From positions 44,860-108,859 of the forward strand of contig JACYXH010000734.1 in the NCBI GenBank assembly GCA_026745465.1: a stretch of DNA of 64,000 bases, written 5' to 3'. Below, in pieces: positions 40,866 to 43,834 of the stretch. A program made the translations under genes and the position numbers. Source of the DNA: Lota lota. Its lineage: Eukaryota > Chordata > Actinopteri > Gadiformes > Lotidae. Every line of letters starts with the position of its first letter. Within the stretch, counting starts at the first letter, position 1. The notes below the pieces were generated by a model. It saw only the letters and a list, made by a program, of their open reading frames with translations. It searched no databases and was not told the origin of the DNA.

Positions 40866-43644
40866 ATGACGAAGAGACGACGTGGACGCGTTAGCCTCTC
40901 CGGAGACGAAGAACAAGACGTTTTAAAGCGGAGAGCCGGGACAGAAACATTCCAAGGTGGGTCCAACACATTGAACCTCTAATCCTCATTGTTGCCGTCC
41001 TGTCCGCAGGGCGCCATGTTGTACTGTAGCGTTAGCCCCACACGGGTCTCCTGCGCTCCGTGTGAACACGTGATGTTGATGCTTAGCGAAACCAACCTTC
41101 ACGTGCTCTATTGTGTCGCCTCGTCGGATTCCACCAGCGCGTGCTCGGTGCTCGGCGTCCTGTTTGGAGCGCAGGCACGCGGGGCCGCGCTCTGTACGCT
41201 TTGGTTGAACCGGAACAGGCGAGGCCAACACGGGACTTTAACAAAGTTAGTTTGGTGTTAAAGCATCAGGGCGTTCTTCACGAGGAGGACGCATGCGTGA
41301 GTAGGGATGGGTCCCGAAACTGGGTGTTAACCGGGGAGCCTGGGGTGGCCCCATGATACTATTACACACCGTAGTATGTAAAGTGTAATCTAATCTAAGT
41401 ATCGATTAGCTACGACGTACCCGGCGCTGCAAGCGGTATTTGAGGAACAAAGGAAATATATTTACTTCCTGGTGATCGTTCATCCAGAATGATTACCAGG
41501 AAAGGAGAAAAAAAGCAGATCTTCCACCAGAAGAACTGTTCAGATAAGGATTCAGGCCTTTTTGAGGCCCAGCTGCATGCAGACCCCATCCCTGTTGCTC
41601 TATGCCACTGTCTTTTGTTTTCTCTTGTTTATTGATTTCTTTTTGTTTGAATCACATTTCAATTATGTCAATAGTATAGTTATATATTCAAAACCTGTGT
41701 ACGGTGTTGCTGTTGAAGAAATATGTCTTGTTCTTAACTTGTCTTCTTCTAAAAGAAGCGATAAGAGTAGCGTTAAAGTAGCGGCTGGATAAGCAGTATG
41801 GATCAGAGTAGTAGTGGCGTTAGAATCTTCCCTGTGTGTGAGTGCAGTTGTCTCCTTCATTCGCGGTGGTAGCGGTGTGATAGTCGATAGTGACCAGTGT
41901 GTTTATGTTCAGTGCTGTTGTACCGACCTGTTGGCTCAAGAGCTTTGCTTGAAACAACAAAACATTTATGAATATTAACACATTATTACATGTATACAAC
42001 ATATAACGTATAGTTTAAATGGTAATTTAATTTTCATATTTTTTTTCTAGGAATGGCGTCCAACTCTTCCTGGTCTGAGGATATCTTTTCATGTCCCATC
42101 TGTCTGGATGTGCTCAACAGCCCAGTCACCACACCATGTGGACACAACTTCTGCAGAACCTGTATTACAACATGCTGGGATGACCAAGTCCAGTACAAAT
42201 GTCCTGTTTGCAGCAAGCTGTTCCAGACAAGACCTGATTTACAGGTCAATACCTTCATATCAGAGATGGTTTATCAGTTTAGAAGTTCTGTACGAGTCAA
42301 AGAGCAGCCTTGTGTTGAACCAGCAGAAGTTCCCTGTGATGTCTGTACTGGGACCCAGCTGAAGGCTGTGAAGTCCTGCCTAGTGTGCTTTACCTCTTAC
42401 TGCCACACCCACCTGGAGCCACATCAGAGAGTCGCAGGTCTGAAGAAACATCGGCTGGTCGAGCCTATGGACCGTCTGGAAGACAGGATATGTAAGAAAC
42501 ACGACCGACTTCTGGAGCTCTTCTGCCAGACTGAACAGGTGTGTGTGTGTCAGTTCTGCACAGAGACGGACCACAAGTCCCATCCTGTTGTACCTCTAAA
42601 GGAGGAATATGAAGTGCAGACGGCCCAGCTGGGGAAGAAAGTTCATCAGATGATCCAGGAGAGACAACGAAAGATACAGGAGATTAAAGACACAGTAGAT
42701 CGGAGCAAAGCAGACGCAGACAGAGAGATAGCCGATGGTGTGCAGGTCCTCACTGCTCTGAAGCGCTCGCTTGAAAAGTGGCAGGATGATTTCCACCAAA
42801 CGGTTAAAGAGAAACTGAAATCCACAGAGAAAGAAGCTGAAGACCTCATCAAAGAGCTGGAGCAGGAAATAAAAGATCTGACCAATAGAAGCTCAGAGGT
42901 GAAGCAGCTCTCACACACTGAAGACCACCTCCACTTCCTCCAGACCTTCAGATCCCTGAAGAATCCTCCACCCACCAGGGACTGGACAACGGTGGAGGTC
43001 CGTCCTCCGTCATACGTAGGGACCTTGAGGAGATCCCTGGATCAGCTGGAGGAGACACTGAACATGGAGATGAAGAAGGTACTTGACCTGAGATCAGCTC
43101 TAAAGAAGTGTAAGTGTCTGTTTAGTTTGATTTAGGGCTGTCAAATGTACATTTAATATTACAATATTAACTAACACAAAATATTATATTAAATATAAAA
43201 GTGAAAATGCTGAACTGTACTAGTGGTGATGATGAAGAAGAATGGTTCAGCAGCTAATCATGTTTTGTTCTCCCGTCAGATGCCTGTGAACTCACACTGG
43301 ACCCAAACACAGCCCACAGACACCTCTCTCTGTCTGAGGACAACAAAAAGGTGACGTGGGTTAGAGAGGAGCAGTCGTATCCTGATCACCCAGAGAGATT
43401 TGACTCCTGGTACCAGGTGTTGTGTAGAGAGGGTCTGACTGGCAACTGTTACTGGGAGGTAGAGAGGGAAGGAGGTGTTTTTATAGGAGTGGCATACAGA
43501 GGAATCGCAAGGAGAGGAGGGGGTGGTGACAGCAGCCTTGGAGGGAACAACAAGTCCTGGAGTCTTTATTGTGATGATGGTGGTTACTCTGCCCGGTACA
43601 ACGGTATGTTAACAGGCACGTGTCTCCCCCCCCGCTGGGTCTAA
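40866..43644 (+). CDS. TRIM B: RING, B-box, coiled coil fused to an NLR-type B30.2 exon, frameshifted
   Basis: Exons 40866-40956 and 42051-43109 are close copies of TRIM A (RING CPIC...CGHNFC...CPVC, B-box2, coiled coil). At 43079, right after MEMKK, the sequence leaves TRIM A and becomes LRSALKK with donor GTAAGT, matching the end of the NLR linker exon. The acceptor at 43279 leads, in exact phase, to an NLR-type B30.2 exon ([38 protein letters not shown]). A C8 instead of C7 run at 43625-43632 shifts the frame to a stop at 43644, giving 504 codons; uninterrupted, the fusion would be 567. The rest of the SPRY is readable in the next frame to 43834. The fused protein would be an E3 ligase with the NLR's ligand domain. 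The extra C may be real or a sequencing error. AATAAA at 44228. Confidence 0.75.
41745..41965. other. About 220-base insertion specific to TRIM B intron 1
   Basis: TRIM A runs straight from CTTGTCTTATTCTT to AACACATTATTACATG; B has extra sequence (AGAAGCGATAAGAGTAGCG and on) between the same flanks. Origin not recognised. Confidence 0.6.
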
Positions 43645-43834
43645 CAGAGTAGGAGTGTATCTGGACCGTTCTGCTGGCACTCTGTCCTTCTACAGAGTGT
43701 CACCAGATGTAGGAGGGTCCTCAGACACACTGACACACATCCACACCTTCCAGTCCACCTTCACCCAGGAGGACCTCCTCGCTGGGGTTTGGTTATGGAG
43801 GTATGGTGACTCAGTGTCTCTGTGTCGGTTGTAA
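43280..43834 (+). pseudogene. Fourth B30.2 exon, with one-base C insertion
   Basis: Same exon as 37081-37634 by start, order of motifs and end (CRL, stop TAA at 43832-43834). It is exactly one base longer, all accounted for by the C run at 43625. The stop abuts the AC microsatellite. Confidence 0.8.

Follow-up and report, generated by a model that had tools for sequence, protein, structure and literature searches.

The gadiform fish Lota lota carries a TRIM gene, here called TRIM B, in which a RING, B-box and coiled-coil (RBCC) body is joined to a B30.2 (PRY-SPRY) exon of the type found in NLR genes. TRIM B lies in the window, by which we mean the whole 64,000-nucleotide stretch analyzed here (assembly GCA_026745465.1, contig JACYXH010000734.1, positions 44,860 to 108,859), together with a second TRIM gene, TRIM A, and three NLR B30.2 exons, NLRa, NLRb and NLRc. 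We consider it probable that the join goes back to an old fusion and that TRIM and NLR genes went on sharing a diversifying pool of B30.2 exons afterwards. A TRIM39/bloodthirsty-like RBCC body would have gained the tail of an NLR gene, consisting of the last linker codons, an intron and the B30.2 exon, and given rise to a TRIM family with many members in cod-like fishes, of which TRIM B is one copy, frameshifted as assembled. B30.2 exons would then have been replaced or converted between the TRIM and NLR families, a pattern that we attribute to recombination and not to selection alone.

TRIM B follows TRIM A through promoter and leader into the first intron (40726-41753) at 94.4% identity, and in the body (41975-43086) the identity is 92.2%. 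The two diverge just past ATGAAGAAG, which ends at 43078. The sequence-only reading of the window had described this switch at 43079 to the tail of the NLR linker exon, followed by a GTAAGT donor, a short intron and an NLR-type B30.2 exon in exact splice phase. Its coordinates are right; bases 43079-43087 can be assigned to neither TRIM A nor an NLR. The next 45 bases (43088-43132) match the end of the NLR linker exon and the start of its intron, at 95.6% to 36087-36131 and at 91.1% to 6542-6498, and from 43212 or 43224 to 43842-43860 TRIM B is 90.5-91.7% identical to all three NLR B30.2 exons in the window. The GTAAGT stands at 43110 and the acceptor CAG ends at 43279; the leader-exon intron and the second intron are both phase 1. 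Sequence, intron start and splice phase thus agree in assigning the tail to the NLR B30.2 exon type. Pfam finds zf-RING_UBOX (E = 5.8e-12), zf-B_box (E = 2.1e-10) and TRIM_CC (E = 5.9e-41) in the TRIM B protein and gives no match there to FISNA-NACHT, which is present in NLRc. The body is TRIM39/bloodthirsty-like, while the PRY-SPRY is not of the TRIM39 type that TRIM A has; among six proteins compared, a set without zebrafish bloodthirsty or finTRIM, the body is 79% identical to a Gadus TRIM39-like protein (P0178) and 38% to both an eel TRIM16-like (P0055) and a Polypterus (P0008) protein. Since the NLR-type tail includes part of the NLR intron, exon shuffling between the TRIM and NLR families did happen, as the sequence-only reading had proposed.

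What does not stand is the further proposal that the event was local and recent, a transfer caught beside both parents. A recent move of an exon from a neighboring NLR into TRIM B, leaving donor and recipient side by side, would fit the presence of both TRIM genes and three NLR B30.2 exons within one window and the compatible splice phases, but we give it almost no credence. In searches of the genome (575 Mb, 867 contigs), the junction-spanning stretch 42950-43280 occurs at at least 40 places including the window's own, at 90-100% identity, and 37 of the 40 matches scored (the best of 2183 candidates) cover all 331 bases. The TRIM A junction and the NLR linker also have at least 40 genome matches each. 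The B30.2 exon of TRIM B is at least 99% identical to that of 11 other copies, all on other contigs, versus 90-92% to the NLR B30.2 exons of the window; the next match is at 94% (best 40 of 1490 candidates scored). In all 11 of these sister copies the B30.2 directly adjoins a TRIM-type junction matched in the genome search. A DNA tree of 31 B30.2 exons from this genome (L084 and L094 left out) groups TRIM B with four TRIM rows at support 100/100. These counts, identities and placement led us to reject the candidate of a recent local transfer. A position of this B30.2 within TRIMs, with the NLR as recipient, was the phylogeny that the sequence-only reading had named as telling against it; TRIM B does fall in a close group within TRIMs, but TRIM B30.2 domains overall form no clade, and this placement does not make the NLR the recipient.

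The age of the fusion shows in the proteins of other fishes. A protein search with the junction region returned 709 matches, and among the 120 listed all but one are gadiform or from Lepidogalaxias. By identity, the proteins closest to the TRIM B tail come from codfishes, chiefly Lota lota itself, among 120 listed of 4921 matches ranked by likeness to that tail. From these 120 we labeled 89 by hand for lineage and type, using the Pfam column and the protein name, and left out the other 31. Variants of the peptide MKKVPDLRSALKK before the residues YAC occur in TRIMs of four lineages (15/25 in Lota, 5/6 in the Gadus group of Gadus, Boreogadus and Arctogadus, 14/19 in Merluccius and 3/7 in Lepidogalaxias), for a total of 37 of the 57 labeled TRIM proteins versus none of the 32 NLRs. 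Conversely, the NLR linker VEHGGV.. is found in 30 of the 32 NLRs and in none of the 57 TRIMs; both patterns were written after the sequences had been seen. This spread across four lineages indicates that the fusion is old, a conclusion we regard as well supported. The shared junction type makes a single fusion, older than the split between Gadus, Lota and Merluccius, most likely. Separately, the Lepidogalaxias TRIMs (rows including P0024, P0068, P0078, P0083, P0085, P0115 and P0120) approach Lota TRIMs as closely as do TRIMs of other gadiforms, at 83.1% over the RBCC and 78.1% over the B30.2, and Lepidogalaxias sits in its own order. The same B30.2 type also stands behind immunoglobulin-like or C-type lectin domains in predicted codfish proteins (P0061, P0062, P0087, P0088, P0103 and P0117), which may be gene-model joins.

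In the set sampled, the B30.2 domains themselves group by lineage and not by gene family. We compared copies from this genome (own rows) with predicted proteins of Lota, the Gadus group, Merluccius and Lepidogalaxias, dropping P0048 and P0059, which have no usable B30.2 domain. In a protein tree of 122 domains, one cluster (support 97) holds 14 of 16 NLR and 5 of 6 TRIM rows of the Gadus group, another (support 92) holds 13 of 19 TRIM and 5 of 6 NLR rows of Merluccius, and own and Lota rows are intermixed. Across 79 own, Gadus-group and Merluccius rows, 38 of them TRIM, monophyly of the TRIMs is rejected by the approximately unbiased (AU) test (p = 1.7e-7). It is also rejected when only canonical junctions are kept and 6 further TRIM proteins are left out (p = 1.2e-4; 32 TRIMs in 73 rows), where 15 changes of type are needed versus 3 of lineage. 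Clades by lineage are not rejected for the own rows (p = 0.69) or the Gadus group (p = 0.68), and Merluccius is already a clade (support 82). Mean B30.2 identity within own, Lota, Gadus-group and Merluccius rows is 79.6-85.0% whatever the pairing of types, versus 71.5-78.3% between lineages; own and Lota rows behave as one lineage (82.4-83.2%), and Lepidogalaxias, with TRIM rows only, reaches 77.6% among its own. This matrix and the AU tests exclude three rows that are long or deviant. The best NLR match from the same lineage exceeds the best TRIM match from another lineage for 13 of 14 own, 5 of 6 Gadus-group and 16 of 18 Merluccius TRIMs. Even a single position follows this pattern: the residue after YAC is G in Merluccius (13/19 TRIMs and 5/6 NLRs, with one not read), D in the Gadus group (4/6 TRIMs, 12/16 NLRs) and E in Lota (24/25 TRIMs, 8/8 NLRs).

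Within each lineage, then, TRIM and NLR B30.2 domains are as alike as domains within either family, which suggests that exons were probably replaced or converted across the two families. Clustering by lineage and not by type would also be expected if TRIM bodies and NLR tails had fused separately in each fish lineage, without need for later exchange. We consider this unlikely, because variants of a single junction peptide recur in TRIMs of all four lineages and in no NLR, as counted above, and because the same breakpoint would have been required several times. Continued sharing of B30.2 exons between families after a single fusion appears the likely course from these comparisons of sequences.

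Silent sites point the same way. In this genome, mean synonymous divergence (dS) between B30.2 exons is 0.049 for TRIM-NLR pairs (247 pairs), 0.041 for TRIM-TRIM pairs (78) and 0.052 for NLR-NLR pairs (171), and 0.106 between TRIM body exons (66 pairs among 12 copies with an open body). These are simple Nei-Gojobori counts over 13 TRIM and 19 NLR B30.2 exons and 12 body exons, with different sets of TRIM copies for B30.2 and body. Of the 32 NLR stretches fetched, 11 have no complete B30.2, and genome copies were labeled NLR by the linker exon as sole criterion. Because dS is lower between TRIM and NLR exons than between TRIM bodies, by this measure the B30.2 exons of the two families parted more recently than the TRIM bodies did from one another. 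Nonsynonymous divergence (dN) exceeds dS in all 247 TRIM-NLR, 72 of 78 TRIM-TRIM and 167 of 171 NLR-NLR pairs of B30.2 exons, and in none of the 66 body pairs; the B30.2 exon diversifies at the protein level. The variable positions coincide between the families (Spearman correlation 0.67 over 183 sites, 9 TRIM and 14 NLR rows). To us the chances are evenly balanced that gadiform TRIM ligases and NLRs draw on a common B30.2 pool, alike at silent sites within each lineage and diversifying on the protein surface at the same positions, so that binding variants would be usable across families.

Several results weigh against continued exchange between the families. A run-length test for conversion tracts, applied to 24 thinned rows of 64, gave p <= 0.01 in only 5 of 140 TRIM-NLR pairs and p <= 0.0034 in none, with p <= 0.01 in 3 of 45 TRIM-TRIM and 0 of 91 NLR-NLR pairs for comparison. 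No TRIM-NLR pair among 40 TRIM and 24 NLR exons is more than 95.5% identical at the DNA level, so that no fresh exchange across families is seen, and the sole traced recombinants, L011 and L054, are each made of two TRIMs. When this genome is taken by itself, a TRIM clade is rejected at no better than p = 0.033, and no more than 2 changes of type are required by well-supported branches. For just 13 of 25 Lota TRIMs does a Lota NLR come nearer than any TRIM from another lineage; own and Lota lineages are inseparable, and Lota and Lepidogalaxias rows are absent from both cross-lineage AU tests. Finally, the data from other species are predicted proteins chosen by likeness to TRIM B, and five of the proteins (P0044, P0050, P0063, P0095 and P0098) look mis-joined. 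In these five, all Lota models, an A-type PRY runs directly into the ACELTLDP of an NLR-type B30.2, which reflects either real alternative splicing or mis-joined models.

The direction of the original transfer was more likely from NLR to TRIM, judging from intron and linker homology. A second TRIM subtype, found at L105 (C151:44700-50500) and L106 (C635:68300-74700), has an intron of about 590 bases and the junction MKNLPVLKSTLKKY, as read in L105; L106 also contains a piece of an A-type tail. The first 87 bases of the L105 intron match the NLR intron at 85% (E = 1.8e-23), and 72 of these are 89% identical to NLRa. The NLR linker, in the form VEHGG..KP.L.KY, recurs in salmonid and percid B30.2 proteins that are NLR-like or unassigned (P0001, P0005-P0007 and P0034) and, more weakly, in Aplochiton (P0108). 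Taken together, the L105 intron homology and the linker in salmonid and percid proteins make the NLR-to-TRIM direction the likelier one. The opposite arrangement, with the TRIM family as source of the tail and the NLRs as recipients, draws on the fact that homology of tail and intron carries no built-in direction; in the available part of van der Aa et al. (2009; PMC2657112), the finTRIM exon is likewise only "maybe" NLR-derived and the direction is left unsettled. We nevertheless hold it to be quite unlikely, given the occurrence of the NLR linker in salmonids and percids, the near restriction of listed junction matches to gadiforms and Lepidogalaxias, and a TRIM tail that retains just the last codons of the NLR linker.

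TRIM B itself has many fellow copies and, in this assembly, a broken frame; taken on its own, the window yields this correction. The sequence-only reading had credited the window copy with a ubiquitin ligase bearing an NLR ligand domain, overlooking a run of eight C at 43626-43633. NLRb and NLRc have seven C there; the one extra C loses the frame and truncates the B30.2. On the part before the shift, Pfam finds PRY and not SPRY, so that a complete PRY-SPRY is lacking as assembled; in the sister copies L008 and L010 both are found. The B30.2 is open over 183 residues in 10 of the 11 sisters, and both exons are open in 8 (L004, L007-L010, L012, L013 and L016); the body exon is broken in L006 and L015, and L005 is cut off by a contig end. 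A further set of TRIM B-type copies (L017-L025, L027 and L028) forms groups of near-identical copies, and their B30.2 likeness to TRIM B ends at base 142, 327 or 400.

The eight-C run is possibly a homopolymer error of the assembly, which raises the question of whether the gene structure as a whole could be a misjoining of TRIM and NLR copies in a repeat-rich region. Many copies do lie on contigs shorter than 300 kb in a repetitive assembly. The same intron and junction recur at the places in the genome counted above, however, and matching proteins are annotated in other species, so we judge an artifact very unlikely as an account of the fusion; it is a possibility for the eight-C run and for the recombinant L011.

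Tails also pass from one TRIM gene to another, by recombination in the body that they share or else at the B30.2 exon; L054 and L011 are examples. In a tree of 60 RBCC bodies (28 with an A tail, 32 with a B tail) the tail label changes five times, at least four of these changes being forced by well-supported branches. L054 carries an A tail and L007 a B tail; the two are 98.8% identical over 1558 bases, after which the tails differ at the same ATGAAGAAG point. A crossover within the common body would probably suffice to exchange tails. In L011 the body and intron belong to the TRIM B group, but the B30.2 is only 87% identical to that of TRIM B; this B30.2 and its 3' flank are 99.4% identical over 1530 bases to the second TRIM subtype. 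We had considered L011 as a fresh NLR-to-TRIM swap and rejected this when its B30.2 relatives (on C151 and C635) proved to be that TRIM subtype and not NLRs. We take L011 as a TRIM-TRIM recombinant; misassembly is a possibility.

Shuffling of B30.2 exons between TRIMs and NLRs is itself already published: it was proposed for finTRIMs and NLRs in 2009 (PMC2657112) and resumed in 2016 (PMC4852459). The comparisons that follow refer to the available parts of the cited papers. In zebrafish finTRIM group A and NLR group 1 (van der Aa et al., 2009; PMC2657112), as here, a B30.2 exon is shared through TRIM-NLR shuffling and the B30.2 is under positive selection. The zebrafish TRIM body is a finTRIM, whereas ours is TRIM39/bloodthirsty-like, and the lineage-wise mixing of TRIM and NLR domains described here was not met with in that paper. 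In the zebrafish NLR-B30.2 family (Howe et al., 2016; PMC4852459), gene conversion of the B30.2 exon crosses NLR groups and finTRIM shuffling is proposed at its origin; there an NLR B30.2 resembles other NLR B30.2 domains more than those of TRIMs, and the genes lie apart, whereas here the domains are intermingled and the genes share a window. Class IV TRIMs combine an RBCC with a PRY-SPRY (PMC3137616). With the bloodthirsty/TRIM39-like genes (Boudinot et al., 2011; PMC3137616), TRIM A is alike in both body and B30.2, whereas TRIM B is alike in body and has an NLR-type tail. Domain swaps of other kinds are described there too, as in ftr52, where a cyclophilin domain takes the place of the B30.2 (PMC3137616). 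TRIM16-, TRIM25- and TRIM47-like proteins of Gadus, Merluccius and Lepidogalaxias have the body, junction and B30.2 types of TRIM B where aligned, and these annotation names give no hint of NLR origin. In the available parts of the open-licence literature, we found no report of TRIM-NLR B30.2 mixing by lineage in codfishes.

Intact copies of the fusion would encode RING ubiquitin ligases with an NLR-type, fast-evolving recognition domain, so that one binding repertoire could serve both ubiquitination and NLR signaling. If a common pool exists, sensors (NLRs) and effectors (TRIM ligases) would share binding repertoires, and innate recognition domains of fishes would evolve across gene families and not inside them. 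Codfishes have lost major histocompatibility complex class II, and immune families are expanded in cod and haddock (PMC5894186), which makes a shared fast-evolving sensing module of interest there.

The features of the window are collected in Table 1. A FISNA-NACHT exon is seen for NLRc only among the three NLR B30.2 exons, and comparison with the TRIM B tail finds no linker near the NLRb exon, the only linker matches in the window being at 36087 and 6542.

Table 1. Features of TRIM B, TRIM A and the NLR genes in the window.
Feature	Position	Strand	Basis and remarks
TRIM B leader exon, MTKRRRGRVSLSGDEEQDVLKRRAGTETFQ	40866..40956	+	ATG at 40866; phase 1 donor at 40957; same leader in TRIM A
TRIM B RING, B-box, coiled-coil exon	42051..43109	+	TRIM-like up to 43078; NLR-linker-like from ~43088-43094 to 43109; Pfam
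TRIM B junction stretch	43079..43093	+	poor match to TRIM A and to NLR linker alike (alignment)
TRIM B 170-base GT-AG intron	43110..43279	+	first 23 and last 56-68 bases NLR-like; middle without NLR-intron match
TRIM B NLR-type B30.2 exon, frameshifted	43280..43834	+	120/183 residues read; stop at 43642-43644
Run of eight C, frame-shifting	43626..43633	+	seven C in NLRb, NLRc and the printed open sisters L008, L010, L013
TRIM A leader exon	16997..17087	+	same leader as TRIM B
TRIM A RBCC and different PRY-SPRY, single exon, TRIM39/bloodthirsty-like	17968..19595	+	Pfam; 77.7% over 542 residues to Gadus TRIM39-like P0178
NLRa B30.2 exon	4742..5295	-	3' end altered; frame runs on into microsatellite
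NLRb B30.2 exon	12454..13007	+	open reading frame; comparison with TRIM B tail
NLRc FISNA-NACHT exon	29849..31672	+	Pfam FISNA, NACHT, NOD2_WH, NLRC4_HD2
NLRc linker exon	36062..36109	+	alignment
NLRc B30.2 exon, open, 183 residues	37081..37634	+	open reading frame, Pfam

Directly upstream of the TRIM B promoter lies a remnant of a reverse transcriptase like that of a long interspersed element (39720-40334, plus strand; Pfam zf-RVT). An open reading frame of 379 residues at 14828-15967 on the plus strand has no Pfam match and, by its looks, may encode a tyrosine recombinase of a DIRS-like element. Long low-complexity or repeat tracts read as long open reading frames at 22309-23880, 52987-53732 and 58442-61042, which fits the dense short tandem repeats described for codfish genomes (PMC5894186).

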